From the NCBI GenBank assembly GCA_012519565.1, contig JAAYPX010000028.1, positions 1 through 33,304 on the forward strand: a stretch of 33,304 bases of DNA, read 5' to 3'. Positions within the stretch are counted from its first letter, which is position 1; every line of letters starts with the position of its first letter. Positions 393 to 30,515 of the stretch are shown in pieces. Below the pieces are notes generated by a model. It did not search any database, was not told where the DNA came from, and worked only from the letters and a program-made list of their open reading frames with translations. The DNA is from Clostridiales bacterium. GTDB lineage: Bacteria; Bacillota; Clostridia; Lachnospirales; Lachnospiraceae. Both the position numbers and the translations under genes were made by a program.

Positions 393-460
393 TAAAATAT
401 GCTGTAAAATCAAATTATATTAAATAGTAAAAAATAAAAAAGAAAGGTTTGAATTTTAAA

Positions 461-913
461 ATGAGAGTTGTTATACAAAGAGTTAAAGAAGCAAAAGTTA
501 CAGTAGATAATAATTGCATTGGAGCTATAGGGAAGGGATATCTTATATTGTTAGGGGTAGGCAAGGAGGATACCAAGGAAGTAGTAGATAAGTATGTTGA
601 TAAGATCATGAAACTTAGGATTTTCTCCGACGAATACGGTAAAACTAATCTCTCCATTAAAGATGTAGAAGGTGAAGTCTTAGTAGTATCACAGTTTACC
701 CTATATGCAGATTGTAAGAAAGGTAACAGACCAAGTTTTACAGATGCTGCTGGTGTGGAAAAGGCTATAGAACTATATGAATATTTTTTAAGTAGTGTCA
801 AAAAGCAAATTGGCAAAGTAGAGGCTGGTCAGTTTGGAGCAGATATGGAGGTTAGTCTTACTAATGATGGACCTTTTACTATAGTCTTAGATGAAAGTAT
901 AATAATTAATTAA
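461..913 (+). CDS. dtd: D-aminoacyl-tRNA deacylase (Dtd)
   Basis: Trans-editing enzyme that hydrolyses D-aminoacyl-tRNA (and mischarged Gly-tRNA-Ala), recycling tRNA in the cytoplasm. The 150-aa product matches the family length and starts with the typical MRVVIQRV. The two signature segments are present: SQFTLYAD at about residues 77-84 and NDGPFT at 135-140 (family NxGPxT), which lines the active site across the dimer. ATG at 461 is chosen over an in-frame TTG at 449 because the family begins exactly here; an AGAAAGG ribosome binding site lies somewhat far upstream. It is followed by an AT-rich gap and the Csp pair, so it probably forms its own unit. Confidence 0.93.
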
Positions 914-1026: not shown

Positions 1027-2721
1027 ATGACAATAGAGGAAAGGGAAGTTATAGTAAGTGAAGATTATGCGGATCTGCTTATTGAGTATAATGGTGACTT
1101 AACTGTTTTTGAACAATTTCCTGATGGAATTATACATTTCATCAGTGGAAGGTTTGCTGTATTACATATTCCAGAAGAGAGGATTACAGACAGTGCCATA
1201 TTTGAATTTGGATATTCCGCTATGCCTACCTGTTATGGCATTGTAAGTTCCCAAAGTCTAGAAGCCTCTGGTGTTGTTAGGCTTAGGAATCAACCAGTGC
1301 TGAATCTAAGGGGAAGCGGGGTTCTAATTGGAATTATTGATACAGGTATCGATTATACCAATCCAATTTTTCAATATGCGGATGGAACTACAAGGATAGC
1401 CTATATATGGGACCAAACTATCCAAGGTGATAACTATCCTGAAGGTACTTTTTATGGGACAGAGTATACTAGAGAAGATATTAACGCAGCCCTGCAATCT
1501 GAGAATCCGTTGGAAATTGTTCCTTCTACCGATGAAATAGGCCATGGCACTATGGTAGCTGGAATTGCAGCAGGTAATCCCGTTCCTGAAAGTGATTTCT
1601 ATGGAATTGCCAACAGTGCAGAATTTGTAGTGGTGAAATTAAAACCTGCCAAGGCATATCTGAAAAGATTTTTCTGCATACCAGAAGATGCTATTTGCTA
1701 TCAAGAAAATGATGTATTATTTGGAATACAGTATCTAACTCAAGTTGCTTTTAGAATTAATCGACCTATGGCCATATGCGTTGCTATAGGGTCTTCACAA
1801 GGTGCCCATGATGGGAGGGGGCTTTCTAGTACTTTTGTATCATCAGTTGCAGCCTTCTATGGTATAGCTGTAGTAGTTGCAGCTGGAAATGAGGGAAATG
1901 CCAGAAGGCATTTTTATAGTACAATCGATCCAGCAGTTGGTTATGTAGATGTTGAATTGCTGGTAGGTGAAAATGAAGGAGATTTTTTTATGGAGCTTTG
2001 GGGTAATGCTCCAGATCTTTATTATGTTGATGTACTATCTCCCAGTGGGGAGTATATTCCTAGAATTATTGGGGGATTAACTGATCATAGAGCAATCACA
2101 TTTTTATTTGAAAGTACTATATTACTGATTGACTATAATATGGTGGAATCTCAAAGCGGTGATCAATTAATTTTGTTTAGATTTAGAAGACCTGCCCCTG
2201 GTATTTGGAGGTTCCGCGTATATCAAAGGGGAGACTTGGAGGGAGCGATTAATATATGGCTACCAAAGGAAGGTTTCATTTCAAATAATACATATTTTGT
2301 TAACTCTAATCCTTATACTACACTTTTAAACCTGGCCAATACCATGGTACCCATTACCATAACAGCATATAATTCTGGGGATAATAGTCTTTACCTAGCC
2401 GCCAGTAGAGGATATGCCAGAACTAATTTTATTGTTCCGGATCTGGCTGCTCCCGGAATTAATATAGTTGCCCCAACCCTTAATCATGGCTTCACAGAAG
2501 TTACTGGAACCAGTGCGGCTGCGGCCCATACAACAGGTATAGCTGCCCTTATGTTGGAGTGGGGAGTTCTCAGAGAAAATCATCTAAGAATGAATTCCCT
2601 AGTAATAGGAAAACTTTTAATAAGAGGGGCCAGAAGAGATCCTGAGCTGGAATATCCCAATAGAGATTGGGGATATGGAATACTGGATATATTTAATGCA
2701 TTTGATAGATTAAGATCTTAA
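1027..2721 (+). CDS. Csp-type S8 subtilisin-like protease, intact triad
   Basis: Subtilase of the Csp (spore germination protease) architecture: a short N-terminal prodomain (about 1-85), then a catalytic domain interrupted between the oxyanion Asn and the Ser by about 130 residues resembling the Csp jelly-roll insert. The triad is D105 (IIDTGID), H173 (GHGTMVAG) and S496 (GTSAAAAH); the oxyanion Asn is N288 (AAGNEGN). No signal peptide is seen, as expected for a protein made inside the developing spore. In clostridia, CspB-type proteases process the cortex hydrolase precursor pro-SleC; assigning that role here is inference. ATG 1027 is preferred to ATG 1015 because GGAGG at 1017-1021 lies 5 nt upstream and the paralogue starts at the same point (MTxEERE). 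It forms an operon with the next gene, 12 nt downstream. Confidence 0.88.
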   Translation: MTIEEREVIVSEDYADLLIEYNGDLTVFEQFPDGIIHFISGRFAVLHIPEERITDSAIFEFGYSAMPTCYGIVSSQSLEASGVVRLRNQPVLNLRGSGVLIGIIDTGIDYTNPIFQYADGTTRIAYIWDQTIQGDNYPEGTFYGTEYTREDINAALQSENPLEIVPSTDEIGHGTMVAGIAAGNPVPESDFYGIANSAEFVVVKLKPAKAYLKRFFCIPEDAICYQENDVLFGIQYLTQVAFRINRPMAICVAIGSSQGAHDGRGLSSTFVSSVAAFYGIAVVVAAGNEGNARRHFYSTIDPAVGYVDVELLVGENEGDFFMELWGNAPDLYYVDVLSPSGEYIPRIIGGLTDHRAITFLFESTILLIDYNMVESQSGDQLILFRFRRPAPGIWRFRVYQRGDLEGAINIWLPKEGFISNNTYFVNSNPYTTLLNLANTMVPITITAYNSGDNSLYLAASRGYARTNFIVPDLAAPGINIVAPTLNHGFTEVTGTSAAAAHTTGIAALMLEWGVLRENHLRMNSLVIGKLLIRGARRDPELEYPNRDWGYGILDIFNAFDRLRS

Positions 2722-2733
2722 TGGAGGTGGAAT

Positions 2734-4440
2734 ATGACCTATGAGGAGAGAGAGAGAATTATCAGTGATGACTATGCTGATCTAATTATTGAATATAATG
2801 GTAATTTAGCAGTTTTAGATGTTTTTGCTGATGACACAATTAATATCTTAGATTTCCGATTTGCTATTGTTCATATTCCTGTAGCAAGAATTACTAGTTT
2901 TAGTACGGTTGAGTATCCATATTCGGCCATTCCAGCCTGTTTTGGAACAACCAGTGAGGTAAGTTTAGAAGCATCTGGAATAAATAGATTGAGAAATCAA
3001 CCTAATTTTAACCTTAGGGGGCAGGGAACTCTGATTGGTATAATAGATACTGGTATAGACTATACCAATCCAGTATTCAGATATCCCGATGGTACCACTC
3101 GGATTGCTGCTTTGTGGGACCAGACCATATTTAGTGAAACTCAATATCCAGCTAATTTTAATTATGGGACTGAGTACAGAAGAGAGATAATTAATGAAGC
3201 TTTGGCTTCCGATGATCCCTATAGTATTGTTCCTAGTGTAGATGAGGATGGGCATGGCACCATGATAGCCAGCATAGCTGGTGGTAGAGATAACCCGGGA
3301 GCAGGATTTTATGGTGTGGCTACAGACGCTGAATTTGTAATTGTAAAATTAAAGCAGGCTAAACCCCATCTTAGGCGTTTTTTTTCAATTCCCTCTGATG
3401 TTACCTGCTTTCAAGAGAATGATATTATGATGGGAGTTAGCTACTTAACTAGAATAGCAAGGGAGTTGGGAAGGCCTCTATCAGTGTGCATTGCTTTAGG
3501 AAGTTCCCATGGAGCCCATGATGGGACCAGTCCTATAAGTGATTATCTGGCCATGATAGCTGATATAGCTGGCAATTCCGTTGTGGTATCTGCCGGTAAT
3601 GAGGGCAATGCCCGTAGTCATTACTTTGGAGTAGTGGATGTTAATGAAGAATATGAAACTGTAGAGCTTAATGTAGCAGAAAACGAACAGGGCTTTCTAA
3701 TGGAGATCTGGGCAAACTCACCTAATACCTTTGCATTAGATATTTTAACACCTACTGGCGAATTTGTACCTAGAGTAAATGTCAGAATAATTGATAACAG
3801 AAAGGTTACATTTATATTTGAGCAGACAGTATTAAATATTGACTATATAATGGCCGAATCTCAAACAGGAGATCAGTTGGTAGCCCTAAGGTTTTTTAAT
3901 CCTACTTCAGGCATATGGAGATTTAGAATTTACCGTGATGATAATATCCCCTTAAGTTTTCATATATGGCTGCCTATGAAGAATTTTATATCACCAGATA
4001 CATACTTTACTCAGTCCAATATATATACTACACTTTTGATTCCTGGCACTTCTGATGTCCCGATCGTGGCAACGGCATATAATCCTGTTAATGATAGTTT
4101 GTATGCTGATGCCAGCAGGGGTTTTAATAGGCTGGGTCTTCCAATACCGACCATTGCGGCACCTGGGGTTGGGATTGTTGCAGCCAGCATAGATCAGACT
4201 TTTATAACAGTTAATGGGACTGGAGCAGCTGCAGCCCATACGGCTGGGGTGGCAGCCATGTTGTTAGAATGGGGAGTTGTAAGAGGCAATGTCACTTCAT
4301 TGGATACGGTAGGTATTAAAAATTTTATTGTTAGGGGGGCTAGGCGGGATGTCAGTAGTGTATATCCCAATAGAGACTGGGGTTATGGAATTTTAGACAT
4401 ATTTAATGTTTTTGATGTATTAAGAGTTGAAGTAATATAA
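2734..4440 (+). CDS. Csp-type subtilase paralogue, catalytic Ser replaced by Gly (pseudoprotease)
   Basis: Full-length paralogue (568 aa) of the preceding gene, collinear from MTYEERERIISDDYADL to the final NRDWGYGILDIFN. D105 (IIDTGID), H174 (GHGTMIAS) and the oxyanion N289 (SAGNEGN) are kept, but the nucleophile motif GTSAAAAH reads GTGAAAAH: codon 497 is GGA. No frameshift or stop is present, and the rest of the fold motifs look conserved, so this is a dead enzyme rather than a decayed gene. The nearest precedent is Clostridioides difficile, where pseudoproteases CspC and CspA work with active CspB in germinant sensing. GGAGGT lies just upstream of the ATG. Csp genes are usually forespore-expressed; spoVT follows directly downstream. 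Confidence 0.88.
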   Translation: MTYEERERIISDDYADLIIEYNGNLAVLDVFADDTINILDFRFAIVHIPVARITSFSTVEYPYSAIPACFGTTSEVSLEASGINRLRNQPNFNLRGQGTLIGIIDTGIDYTNPVFRYPDGTTRIAALWDQTIFSETQYPANFNYGTEYRREIINEALASDDPYSIVPSVDEDGHGTMIASIAGGRDNPGAGFYGVATDAEFVIVKLKQAKPHLRRFFSIPSDVTCFQENDIMMGVSYLTRIARELGRPLSVCIALGSSHGAHDGTSPISDYLAMIADIAGNSVVVSAGNEGNARSHYFGVVDVNEEYETVELNVAENEQGFLMEIWANSPNTFALDILTPTGEFVPRVNVRIIDNRKVTFIFEQTVLNIDYIMAESQTGDQLVALRFFNPTSGIWRFRIYRDDNIPLSFHIWLPMKNFISPDTYFTQSNIYTTLLIPGTSDVPIVATAYNPVNDSLYADASRGFNRLGLPIPTIAAPGVGIVAASIDQTFITVNGTGAAAAHTAGVAAMLLEWGVVRGNVTSLDTVGIKNFIVRGARRDVSSVYPNRDWGYGILDIFNVFDVLRVEVI

Positions 4441-4574: not shown

Positions 4575-5123
4575 ATGAAGGCAACAGGTATAGTAAGAAG
4601 AATAGATGATCTGGGACGTGTTGTAGTTCCGAAAGAAATACGACGGACACTAAGAATTAGAGAAGGTGATCCTCTAGAGATATTTACTGATAGGGAAGGA
4701 GAAATAATATTAAAAAAATATTCGCCTATTGGCGAGTTGGGTCATTTTGCCAAACAATACGCTGATTCTCTGGCACAAACTACAGGATATATAGTTATGA
4801 TAACAGATAAAGATCAATTTATCGCAATAGCTGGCTCTGCTAAAAAGGATTTAATAGCCAGGAGTATTAGCCATGAGCTGGAAGAGATTATTAATGAAAG
4901 AGAGAATATCGTAGCGTCAAGTGAAGATAAAAGATTTATTAAAATCGGCAATGAAGATGATAGCGAATATACCAATCAGGCAATATATACTATTATTTCT
5001 GAAGGAGACGCCATAGGATCTGTTATCCTATTAACTAAGGATGCTAAGATAAAATTTGGGGATACGGAAGCCAAACTGGCAGCAACCGCCGCTTCCTTTT
5101 TGGGAAGACAGATGGAACAATAA
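4575..5123 (+). CDS. spoVT: Stage V sporulation protein T, AbrB-family regulator
   Basis: Forespore transcription factor that tunes sigma-G-dependent genes late in sporulation and influences spore dormancy and germination. Residues 1-50 are an AbrB-type swapped-hairpin DNA-binding domain (MKATGIVRRIDDLGRVVVPKEIRR, LRIREGDPLEIF); residues 55-180 form the GAF-like C-terminal domain typical of SpoVT and absent from AbrB itself. The length of 182 aa fits the family. GGAGG lies a few bases before the ATG. It sits directly after the Csp pair, consistent with a forespore regulon, and is followed by a strong stem-loop, so the transcript probably ends before hup. Confidence 0.95.
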   Translation: MKATGIVRRIDDLGRVVVPKEIRRTLRIREGDPLEIFTDREGEIILKKYSPIGELGHFAKQYADSLAQTTGYIVMITDKDQFIAIAGSAKKDLIARSISHELEEIINERENIVASSEDKRFIKIGNEDDSEYTNQAIYTIISEGDAIGSVILLTKDAKIKFGDTEAKLAATAASFLGRQMEQ

Positions 5124-5456: not shown

Positions 5457-5732
5457 ATGAACAAAGCAGAATTAGTTGCAGCGATTGCTGAGAAAACAGA
5501 GTTTTCTAAAAAGGATGCTGAGAAAGCTCTAAAAGCTTTTATCGATGTTGTTACAGAAGAATTAGCTAAAGGAGAAAAGGTACAGTTAGTTGGTTTTGGT
5601 ACTTTTGAGGTAGTTGATAGACCAGCTAGAACAGGAAGAAATCCTTTAACAAAGGAAACAATTCATATTGCTGCTTCTAAAGCACCTAAGTTCAAAGCTG
5701 GTAAAGCTTTAAAGGATATTGTGAATGCATAA
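5457..5732 (+). CDS. hup: HU family nucleoid protein
   Basis: Small dimeric histone-like protein that bends and compacts DNA non-specifically. The 91-aa product is full length and shows the family order: MNKAELVAAIAEKT helices, then VQLVGFGTFEVVDRPARTG leading into the DNA-grasping beta arm (about residues 46-75) with the intercalating proline region RNP, and the C-terminal FKAGKALKDIV helix. GAGGAGG lies upstream with good spacing. The gene has its own promoter and its own terminator, so it is monocistronic, as expected for a highly expressed protein. Confidence 0.96.
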   Translation: MNKAELVAAIAEKTEFSKKDAEKALKAFIDVVTEELAKGEKVQLVGFGTFEVVDRPARTGRNPLTKETIHIAASKAPKFKAGKALKDIVNA

Positions 5733-20389: not shown

Positions 20390-21376
20390 ATGAAGTTAGG
20401 GAAAGTACCGGAAAGTATCTTAAAAAGGTCGGTTCTTGATCAAATAAAGCATAGAAGAGACGAGGTTCTGGTAGGACCTGCCATTGGTGAAGATTGTAGT
20501 GTTCTAAGTCTGAAAGAAGATGAAGTTCTGGTTATCTCCACAGACCCCATTACAGGAACTGAACATGATATAGGTACATTGGCTGTTCATATAACAGCCA
20601 ATGATATTGCCTCCAATGGAGCGGAAGTTATAGGTATAATGCTATCCGTATTACTGCCAGAGCACACTTAAGAAAATAAACTTAAAACTATTATGAAGGA
20701 TATAGAGACTGTATGTTCTTTATTAAATATTGAGGTAATGGGTGGTCATACTGAGGTGACTAAGGCCGTTAATCAACCTATTATCACAGTCACTGGAATA
20801 GGTAAGATGAAACGTTCTGAGCTGATTAAGACAGCAGGGGCTAAGCCAGGACAGGAAATAGTTATGTCAAAATGGGCAGGTCTGGAAGGAACGGCAATTA
20901 TAGCTAAGGCTAAGGAAGAAGAACTGCTTAGCAGATATTCAGCTTCCTTTATAGATGGCGCAAAAAGAATGATTGATTTTATTTCTGTTTTACCAGATTC
21001 TCGAATAGCCCGTAAGGTAGGTGTAACCTCAATGCATGATGTTACTGAAGGTGGGATATTTGGGGCTCTTTGGGAGATTGGCTATGCAGCAGGAGTTGGA
21101 TTAGAAGTAGATCTAAAGAAGATTCTTATAAAGCAGGAAACCGTTGAGATATGTGAATTCTTTAATATCAATCCTTATAAGCTAATATCTAGTGGATGTA
21201 TGTTAATGGTTACAGATAAGGCCAATCTTCTGGTAGAAAGCTTATTAGCTGAAGGAATACCAGCTGCGGTTATAGGTAGGATTACAGAAGGGTCTGACCG
21301 TATTATTTGCAATGGCGATGAAATTCGTTATCTAGAGCCGCCAAAGAGTGACGAGCTATATAAAGTCTTGGCGTAA
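20390..21376 (+). pseudogene. AIR synthase / HypE-like protein split by an in-frame TAA
   Basis: Two open stretches, 20390-20668 and 20672-21376, lie in the same frame, separated only by a TAA at codon 94. Read through, they give one continuous 328-residue member of the PurM/AIR-synthase ATP-binding family: GPAIGEDCSVL, ISTDPITGTEHDIG, HITANDIASNGAEVIGIMLSVLLPEHT-stop-ENKLKTIMKDIETVCSLLNIEVMGGHTEVT, then SMHDVTEGGIFGALWE. The stop falls in the linker where relatives have an acidic residue. No ribosome binding site precedes ATG 20693, so restart would be inefficient. The C-terminus lacks the Cys that HypE needs, so this is not a true hydrogenase maturation HypE; function unknown. It may be a nonsense mutation, a sequence error or stop-codon readthrough. 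It is placed before an Lrp-type regulator and an aminotransferase. Confidence 0.85.
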
Positions 21377-29062: not shown

Positions 29063-29091
29063 TTTGCAAGTTGCAAAGAAAGGCATGGTTA
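29063..29091 (+). repeat. 29-nt dispersed repeat, copy 2 (before the HtrA-like gene)
   Basis: Matches 10479-10507 at 26 of 29 positions and stands, like it, exactly 5 nt before an in-frame ATG (29097). It contains TTGCAAGTTGCAA, an internal inverted repeat, and the GAAAGG that serves as the only ribosome-binding-like signal. Confidence 0.7.
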
Positions 29092-29096
29092 TTAAT

Positions 29097-30515
29097 ATGT
29101 CTAAAAATGATCAAGATAATAAGATCAATGACCAAGATAAGAAATTTGAATTTATTAAAGAACAAGTAATAGTTAAAAAACATAAAAAAATTAAGAGATA
29201 TTTATTGCCCTTGCTTTTTAATATTTCCATGGCAATAATGTTTGGTTTAATTGCAGCTGTAACATTTTGCATAGCAGAACCAAGGCTTTATGCTATATTA
29301 CATAAGGAAAAAGATGACAGGCTGCCCATTACTTTCCCTACAAATTATCCTGATGATGCTGATAATGAAGATGATATTGATGATGAAGATGATAATACCA
29401 ACTTAGGAAACGACCATATGGGAGAGAATAATGGGGTGAATGTAAGTAATAATAGTGAAGATAAAGATATAGATGATATAGAACCTTATACGCCACCAGA
29501 ACAAGTTATTGTGGAGCAAAAGATAAGAGCGGACATGGAAGATTACACCAGTATGTATGATGAGATTAGGAGAGTGGCTAACTCTGCCAACCAATCTATA
29601 GTAAGAGTATCCAGTACAATCAATAGGAAAGATTGGTTTGGGAACCCAGTCAATAAGAAGGTAGAAACTACGGGGATTATAATAGCCAATAATGGCAAGG
29701 AACTACTGATACTTGTCAGCCTGGATAGGATAAAGGGGGCTAGCAGTATTCATGTGGTAATATCGGATACCCATTACTTAGAAGCTAAGATGCAGGATTA
29801 TGAGAATGATATTAATTTGGCAGTTATTGCTATTGATTTAGAGGACATCCCTTCTGTATATATGAATAATCTTAAAGTTGCAAGCTTAGGTGAATCCTAC
29901 ACACTGGCATTAGGATCTCCAATACTTGCCCTAGGAAATCCCAATGGATATCCTATTTCCATGGAAGTAGGTGTAATAACCAGTAAAGGTAGCTCTGCAA
30001 TTATTACAGATAATAAGCTGGATCTATTTAATACTAATATTATGGATAACGAATATAGCGATGGGGTCATTGTTAACATGAAAGGAGAAGTTATTGGTAT
30101 CATTACCAGAGCTTTTAAAGAGGGGGTAAATAATGATATCAATACCAATATTGGTATTAGCAAATTAAAAAATATTATAGAAAGAATGGTCAATGGCAAA
30201 CCGAGAATATATTTTGGAATCATAGCTCAGGAATTAACTGATGATGCCAAGGCGCAACATGACCTTGCCTTAGGTATCTATGTAAATGAAGTTGAAGCCA
30301 ATTCACCTGCGTATAAGGCTGGAATAAAAATTGGTGATATTATAACAAAGGTCAATGATAATATTGTATCAAGCTTAAATAGCTTTTACAATATGGTTTC
30401 TAACTGTGAACCAGGTGATGAGATAACAGTTAATGTTAAGAGAACATCCCAGTCCACGGATAAAGAACTGGATATTAAGGTAATACTAGAGGAAAAGGGC
30501 AATAATAAGAAATAG
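29097..30515 (+). CDS. HtrA-like S1C-fold membrane protein with PDZ domain, catalytic His missing
   Basis: 472-aa bitopic protein: charged cytoplasmic N-terminus (1-34), one membrane span (about 36-60, LLPLLFNISMAIMFGLIAAVTFCIA), an acidic linker (about 83-130), a trypsin-like S1C fold (about 155-365) and a PDZ domain (about 372-465). Aligned by eye with HtrA, the strand ending in TNxHVV reads ELLILVSLDRI, so the catalytic His is absent. The Asp region (YENDINLAVIAID) is recognisable. The GNSGG loop reads DNEYSDG with Ser kept but its oxyanion glycines changed. It is therefore probably a non-proteolytic scaffold or sensor outside the membrane. A TTG at 29064 extends the frame, but ATG 29097 is the likelier start. 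Confidence 0.8.
   Translation: MSKNDQDNKINDQDKKFEFIKEQVIVKKHKKIKRYLLPLLFNISMAIMFGLIAAVTFCIAEPRLYAILHKEKDDRLPITFPTNYPDDADNEDDIDDEDDNTNLGNDHMGENNGVNVSNNSEDKDIDDIEPYTPPEQVIVEQKIRADMEDYTSMYDEIRRVANSANQSIVRVSSTINRKDWFGNPVNKKVETTGIIIANNGKELLILVSLDRIKGASSIHVVISDTHYLEAKMQDYENDINLAVIAIDLEDIPSVYMNNLKVASLGESYTLALGSPILALGNPNGYPISMEVGVITSKGSSAIITDNKLDLFNTNIMDNEYSDGVIVNMKGEVIGIITRAFKEGVNNDINTNIGISKLKNIIERMVNGKPRIYFGIIAQELTDDAKAQHDLALGIYVNEVEANSPAYKAGIKIGDIITKVNDNIVSSLNSFYNMVSNCEPGDEITVNVKRTSQSTDKELDIKVILEEKGNNKK

Follow-up and report, generated by a model that had tools for sequence, protein, structure and literature searches.

A tandem of Csp-type subtilases in a Lachnospiraceae genome, with a second member lacking the catalytic serine and repeated loss of this residue among its relatives

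The stretch of DNA considered here, the window, comprises 33,304 nucleotides (nt) of contig JAAYPX010000028.1 (assembly GCA_012519565.1) from a Clostridiales bacterium of the Lachnospiraceae. It carries two consecutive csp genes that encode subtilases of the Csp type, the first with an intact catalytic triad and the second with a glycine where active Csps have their nucleophilic serine (Table 1). Rereading the open reading frames (ORFs) and their codons bears out what the initial annotation had described: two collinear Csp-type subtilases 12 nt apart, the triad residues as tabulated, Gly (GGA) at codon 497 and neither a frameshift nor a stop. The second gene is full length, Ser is the sole catalytic residue missing from its product, and the two proteins are 55 % identical. 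The first gene begins at the ATG at 1027 and ends with the stop codon at 2719-2721; an in-frame ATG at 1015 is a poorer start because it overlaps a GGAGG site. The short spacer between the genes, with its own GGAGG, suggests that both are read from a single transcript. The window is contig 96 of an assembly of 2.77 Mb in 269 contigs that is 90 % complete.

Table 1. Features of the window around the csp tandem
Feature	Position	Strand	Remarks
First csp gene (CspA/CspC-type subtilase, 564 aa)	1027..2721	+	Triad intact
Triad codons of the first gene	D105 1339-1341, H173 1543-1545, S496 2512-2514	+	GTSAAAAH around S496
Spacer with GGAGG ribosome-binding site, 12 nt	2722..2733	+	Read from the sequence
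Second csp gene (568 aa), pseudoprotease by sequence	2734..4440	+	D105, H174 and Asn289 kept
Retained codons of the second gene	D105 3046-3048, H174 3253-3255, oxyanion Asn289 3598-3600	+
Codon 497 of the second gene, GGA (Gly)	4222..4224	+	NGTGAAAAH; Ser in active Csps
spoVT	4575..5123	+	TIGR02851, 272 bits (cutoff 236); 3' neighbour of the csp tandem, kept in the genus
dtd (D-aminoacyl-tRNA deacylase)	449..913	+	Upstream neighbour, also at some genus loci (L141, L173); context only
HU-type DNA-binding protein	5457..5732	+	Next downstream gene, after spoVT at most genus loci; context only

Both proteins are matched by the Peptidase_S8 model PF00082 (82.9 and 74.9 bits, cutoff 21.8). In NCBIfam, the models for CspBA and CspC are by far their top matches, at scores well below the cut-offs of these models (263-295 bits for NF040808, cut-off 675; 327-336 bits for NF040809, cut-off 1250). 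The CspB-type prodomain model gives no match in the first protein and 20.9 bits, under its cutoff of 25, in the second; prodomains are reported to be poorly conserved across Csps (PMC3567191). All eight PDB sequences matched by the second protein at E 1e-10 or better are Csps, the best stretch extending over residues 75-567 and covering the jellyroll-insertion region, with top scores of 289 bits for CspA chains, 232 for 4i0w_B and 182 for CspC. We take 9pr9_A, 9sj9_B and 9t7m_E (also 9pr8_A) to be C. difficile CspA, since published CspA residues fit the letters of 9pr9_A; 9sj6_C, which has an intact triad and is the best match to the CspB-type protein described below, is presumed to be C. difficile CspB, and 4i0w C. 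perfringens CspB. The structure 6mw4 is CspC according to PMC12880746.

In a tree of 93 rows rooted at its midpoint, the Csps split into a CspB half and a CspA/CspC half (support 100 on both sides). Membership in the Csps, which had been proposed, thus follows from the Peptidase_S8 and PDB matches and from this tree alike, and the pseudoprotease branches in the CspA/CspC half, as does its neighbour. Descent of the pseudoprotease from CspB is ruled out by the same tree. The CspA and CspC of C. difficile are sisters (99) and group with clostridial fusion domains (87) rather than with the Lachnospiraceae proteins; by this topology the window pseudoprotease arose independently of them, as had been supposed.

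A third Csp of the window genome, at G000:C175, has 37 % identity with the first window protein and 36 % with the second. Together with its orthologues from related genomes it is placed in the CspB half (CspB clade 100). It has a full CspB_prodomain (113 bits) and an intact triad, and its best PDB matches are 9sj6_C (340 bits) and 4i0w_B (331), the best CspA chain reaching 260. Judged by these features the gene at G000:C175 is of the CspB type and the window pair is not. As this third gene, at another site, is the CspB counterpart, the first window protein may not be the enzyme that cuts SleC; from its residues and placement it is an active-looking protein of the CspA/C type. The initial proposal of a catalyst paired with a sensor stands insofar as an active-looking member does accompany a pseudoprotease, but both belong to the CspA/CspC half and the CspB counterpart lies elsewhere. 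A fourth, weak Csp match is found at C21 of the same genome.

How often the serine has been lost was followed in a genus set of 34 genomes, including that of the window, which lies near Herbinix/Mobilitalea within the Lachnospiraceae. All 34 contain Csp matches. Across the genome collections, with duplicates between them merged, 362 matching ORFs yielded 263 distinct Csp domains, and a tree of 256 rows was built leaving out seven sequences under 450 aa. A profile score of 640 bits was used to separate the CspA/C-type from the CspB-type proteins of the genus, a division that the tree bears out. Among 120 CspA/C-type proteins, tandem and single, 89 carry Ser, 30 Gly and one Cys, while Ser is found in 27/27 full CspB-type sequences. 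At least one Gly protein occurs in 19 of the 34 genomes, the window's included, and at least one CspA/C-type Ser protein in every one; a CspB-type gene is present in at least 25/34, a lower bound among the matches listed. The losses concentrate at one position. In the two-gene tandems of the genus, the first gene has Ser in 47 cases and Cys in one, and the second has Ser in 25 and Gly in 23. A maximum-likelihood tree of 140 rows, built without the Ser/Gly column, contains a main first-gene clade (59 rows: 58 Ser, 1 Cys) and a main second-gene clade (61 rows: 28 Gly, 33 Ser), one Ser row of which has lost its Asp instead (second gene of Anaerocolumna MB42-C2, L045).

Counted as irreversible losses, the second-gene clade requires 15 events (13-18 over the first 500 of 1000 bootstrap trees) and the first-gene clade a single one, to Cys; unordered parsimony gives 13 changes in the second-gene clade. 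The bias toward the second position has a p value of 0.0016 on the assumption that losses are proportional to branch length. Holding the 28 Gly rows together as a single origin is rejected (approximately unbiased test, p-AU 4e-37, 73 rows), which rules out one ancestral Gly in the second-gene clade, so that Ser was lost there some 15 times and not once. A separate clade from other genera (G276, G449, G587, G360 and G466) has Gly in 15/15 rows, and the same five genomes contain weaker matches that score like CspB-type proteins. The 30 Gly codons of the genus are GGA (10), GGT (9), GGG (7) and GGC (4). Ser is encoded by AGY in 76 of the 89 CspA/C-type proteins and by TCN in 27/27 CspB-type genes, a table limited to sequences with the full set D-H-N-S, with no other full CspB-type sequence set aside. 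As AGY is one transition away from Gly, this may explain why Gly rather than Ala appears.

Other departures from the canonical residues were seen in passing. A Csp of Clostridium sp. KNHs205 and an Anaerocolumna metagenome-assembled genome (L067 5977-7659 and L070 5977-7659) has Glu for His and Cys for Ser, and a Csp at L372 has Ala for Asp and Glu for His with Ser retained. At L294 (G101:C129:219500-233500), three CspA/C-type domains share one frame of 1780 residues that adjoins a two-domain CspBA-like frame of 1199 residues.

The Gly proteins are otherwise complete in their catalytic residues. Asp and His are kept in all 51 in which both columns can be read (one further Gly fragment is without that region), and so is the oxyanion Asn. 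Among the 28 Gly second genes, whose branches in the Gly state add up to about 7.6 substitutions per site, Asp, His and Asn are invariant and a neighbouring Thr is invariant or nearly so; the all-Gly clade of other genera has Asp and His in 15/15. The median ratio of nonsynonymous to synonymous substitution rates (dN/dS) is 0.120 for Gly second genes (12 pairs) and 0.114 for the all-Gly clade (7), compared to 0.100 for Ser second genes (50), 0.105 for first genes (169) and 0.061 for CspB-type genes (44); these values, from pairs with at least 60 % identity and dS < 3, are rough, dS being near saturation. A decaying pseudogene is ruled out by a dN/dS of about 0.12. Besides column 497, columns 234 and 460 differ strongly between Ser and Gly second genes, which phylogeny alone may explain. 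The recurrence of Gly in several genomes and through all four of its codons, together with the retention of Asp and His, is, to judge from these alignments, more than chance.

The two genes appear to have travelled together. A csp tandem lies just upstream of spoVT in 28/34 genus genomes by hand count, the window included and with a truncated first gene in two of them, which agrees with the adjacency to this regulator noted at the outset; in the remaining 6/34 there is no spoVT within the stretch fetched around the tandem. Distances among first genes correlate with those among second genes (Mantel r 0.86, reached by 0/500 permutations, 56 adjacent main-clade pairs), and the nearest neighbour agrees in 41/56 pairs. 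The tandem behaves as an old cassette that would have duplicated and diverged as a unit. Its composition varies. G012 and G017 have four csp genes before spoVT in the order Gly, Ser, Ser, Gly, the first pair thus having swapped polarity; G024 has Gly, Gly, Ser, Gly, that is one Gly/Gly and one Ser/Gly pair; and in G276, G587, G360 and G449 the tandems consist of Gly genes throughout. The isolate Mobilitalea sibirica DSM 26468 has two Ser/Gly pairs (L008 and L038) and one Ser/Ser pair (L014).

Genes for the remainder of a germination pathway are widespread in the genus. SleC-like proteins, so labelled from context, size and a PG_binding_1 domain, occur in 32/34 genomes including the window's, often as tandem copies. 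They are encoded near csp genes at L124, L194, L264 and L272, and in G073, G129 and G222 CspBA-like fusions have SleC-like matches at a distance of about 90-260 nt. The L194 locus, in G032, brings together four adjacent genes: one csp with Ser, one csp with Gly, one gene of the CspB type and one that is SleC-like. GerA-family receptors are found in 34/34 genomes, the window genome having a GerA-GerC-permease set, and PF07486 hydrolases, presumably of the SleB/CwlJ family, in 33/34. Given these receptors and hydrolases, which set the genus apart from the receptor-less pathway of C. difficile, the primary germinant-sensor role first suggested for the pseudoprotease is not indicated, and with PF07486 hydrolases present SleC is not the sole candidate cortex hydrolase. 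Two further observations concern these genes. The SleC-like gene at G000:C250 (L329) occurs as two tandem copies, an arrangement shared by many genomes of the genus, and the duplication of the candidate substrate parallels that of csp. PF07486 hydrolase genes lie close to csp pairs in G005:C6 and G032:C4, possibly a further link between csp pairs and cortex hydrolases.

In C. difficile a CspC:CspA heterodimer of pseudoproteases is reported to transduce germination signals (PMC12880746). The window pair resembles CspA and CspC in belonging to the same half of the Csp tree and in including a full-length subtilase without catalytic Ser alongside an intact CspB in the same organism. Its Gly recalls that of CspC (G485), in which Thr170 occupies the position of the His and Gly that of the Ser (PMC6636752). 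CspA, aligned with the second window protein, has Gln and Ala at these positions. Since the second window protein and the Lachnospiraceae Gly proteins keep the His that CspC and CspA have lost, the Lachnospiraceae kind differs. The window pair also differs from C. difficile in consisting of separate tandem genes rather than a CspBA fusion, and the genus in having GerA receptors, C. difficile being described as receptor-less in PMC6636752. Residues of the CspC:CspA interface are largely not conserved in the window pair: both proteins have different residues at the positions of Y361, R456, Q516 and T520 of CspC and of R896, R1036, Q1090, Q1094 and T1098 of CspA, and at the D429/D1008 position Asp is found in the second protein only. 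With C. perfringens CspA, CspB and CspC the system shares separate Csp proteins, a SleC-like candidate substrate and a first gene with an intact triad; the Csps of that species are described as predicted active, while the second partner in the window is inactive by sequence. The protein at G000:C175 groups with the CspB of both species and carries the CspB prodomain, unlike the window pair.

Repeated loss of one residue under strong selection suggests that the second member of the tandem would serve as a built-in regulator rather than an enzyme. We consider it somewhat better than even (probability about 0.55) that the two proteins form a regulator of the CspA/CspC type with two subunits, one of which need not cut, and that it acts in germination on the activation of CspB and SleC. 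The second subunit would repeatedly have lost its nucleophile because its role is binding and not cutting. Unable to cleave its own prodomain, it would keep this covalently attached in the cleft, and it might hold or time the Ser-bearing partner, the separate CspB-type protease at G000:C175, or both. Ger receptors would relay the signal, upon which CspB, possibly with the first subunit, would cut pro-SleC so that cortex hydrolysis begins. The loss of proteolysis, the retention of the prodomain, complex formation, the place in the pathway, sensing and dimerisation are all predictions from sequence comparison.

A number of observations weigh against this two-subunit regulator or limit its reach. 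The two window genes fall outside both main clades of the 140-row tree, so the counts come from relatives. Since the closest genus match to the second window protein is only 59 % identical, the argument is carried by the counts at the level of the genus and not by Gly497 of the window species; the proposed check for conservation of the Gly in orthologues gives a mixed picture, the nearest tree rows having Gly in G024 and G020 and Ser in G012 and G017. Ser loss is evidently not required, 29 of 67 tandems (those with a profile score over 640 or from the genus) being two-gene Ser/Ser pairs, and the Gly/Gly pair in G024 and the all-Gly tandems indicate that a tandem need not contain a catalyst. 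The correlated distances are sufficiently explained by the shared descent of the cassette members, with no contact needed. Neither a dimer of the C. difficile kind nor conservation of its interface is supported by the sequence, given how few interface residues are conserved. According to dN/dS, constraint is weaker on CspA/C-type genes, whether with Ser or Gly, than on CspB-type genes. Outside the genus Ser loss looks rarer within the Lachnospiraceae: of 50 further genomes, taken down the ranking from 228 with a match and thus not at random, one match each, 46 have D-H-N-S, one Gly, one Cys, one Asp at the Asn column, and one has both Asp and His changed. Ser loss as a rule for the whole family is thereby ruled out.

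This rarity elsewhere, together with the single transition that separates AGY from Gly, would also fit relaxed redundancy, in which CspB and the first copy do the cutting and the second copy loses catalysis harmlessly, to be retained only for a structural or packing role in the spore, without taking part in regulation. We regard this as unlikely but still as the foremost competitor, because a dN/dS of 0.120 close to that of the Ser paralogues (0.100-0.105), the unchanged Asp, His and Asn in 51 readable Gly proteins and the bias of losses to the second position (p 0.0016) all speak against a merely tolerated loss. The 28 Gly second genes hold Asp, His, Asn and the adjacent Thr constant or nearly so, and the all-Gly clade has Asp and His throughout. 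Set against the lost His of C. difficile CspC (Thr) and CspA (Gln), this could mean that the Gly proteins are altered and not dead, and use Asp and His for ligand or metal binding or for a weak catalysis mediated by water or assisted by Thr. No other residue stands out as a nucleophile, and the needs of the fold or of prodomain binding could equally hold these columns, which makes such a function improbable.

Persistence of Asp and His would likewise be expected if no pseudoprotease were long-lived, with Ser and Gly toggling or Ser being restored by gene conversion between paralogues. In its favour, unordered parsimony gets by with 13 changes where irreversible loss takes 15, and which state lies at the root of the second-gene clade is undecided; nevertheless we hold this account to be very improbable. 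Of the 30 Gly codons in the genus, 17 are GGA or GGG, from which no single change leads back to Ser, and the 15 rows of the all-Gly clade, from five genomes, are uniform. Around the site, the identity between first and second genes is above its overall value by 0.055 in Ser/Ser neighbours (37) and by 0.039 in Ser/Gly neighbours (28). The two do not differ clearly, which gives no support to the idea that second genes obtained their Ser by gene conversion. An assembly error or a mutation particular to the strain could be invoked for a genome that is incomplete and in many contigs, and whose nearest second-gene relatives have both Ser and Gly. Its probability is negligible, and it is ruled out by the recurrence of Gly in 19/34 genus genomes and in an isolate, M. 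sibirica DSM 26468, at L008 and L038.

A broader form of the two-subunit regulator is put forward tentatively, as something we would not bet on at even odds. The Lachnospiraceae may have evolved, convergently and repeatedly, a second kind of Csp pseudoprotease in which the nucleophile alone is lost, while a working Asp-His pair and oxyanion hole are kept because selection favours some function other than proteolysis, for instance the sensing of a ligand or a lock formed by the prodomain. This would operate in parallel with the Ger receptors and with CspB as a separate protein. The Clostridiaceae and Lachnospiraceae are said to make "exclusively" intact-triad Csps in PMC6636752, and PMC12880746 has their Csps all predicted active. 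For part of the Lachnospiraceae these statements are contradicted by the residues read here. No report of Csp pseudoproteases in the Lachnospiraceae was found in a literature search that left subscription papers mostly out of reach. While the Csp pseudoprotease as a kind is known, its repeated, position-biased and His-keeping variant beside Ger receptors appears to be new.

How the pseudoproteases of C. difficile activate CspB is named as an open question in PMC12880746. The genus offers about 15 natural replicates of the transition from enzyme to pseudoenzyme at one position of a two-gene cassette, and the activation of CspB can be addressed in a relative such as M. sibirica DSM 26468, in which Ser/Ser and Ser/Gly pairs occur in one isolate.

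Two other genes of the window deserve mention. An AIR-synthase-like gene at 20390-21376, pieces of which match the HypE, ThiL and SelD models below cut-off, has an in-frame stop at 20669-20671 after which the frame continues; it is a putative pseudogene, an error or a two-part gene. An HtrA/DegP-like PDZ protein encoded at 29064-30515 has another residue at the position of the catalytic His when compared to a solved DegP-like chain, and may be another pseudoprotease.

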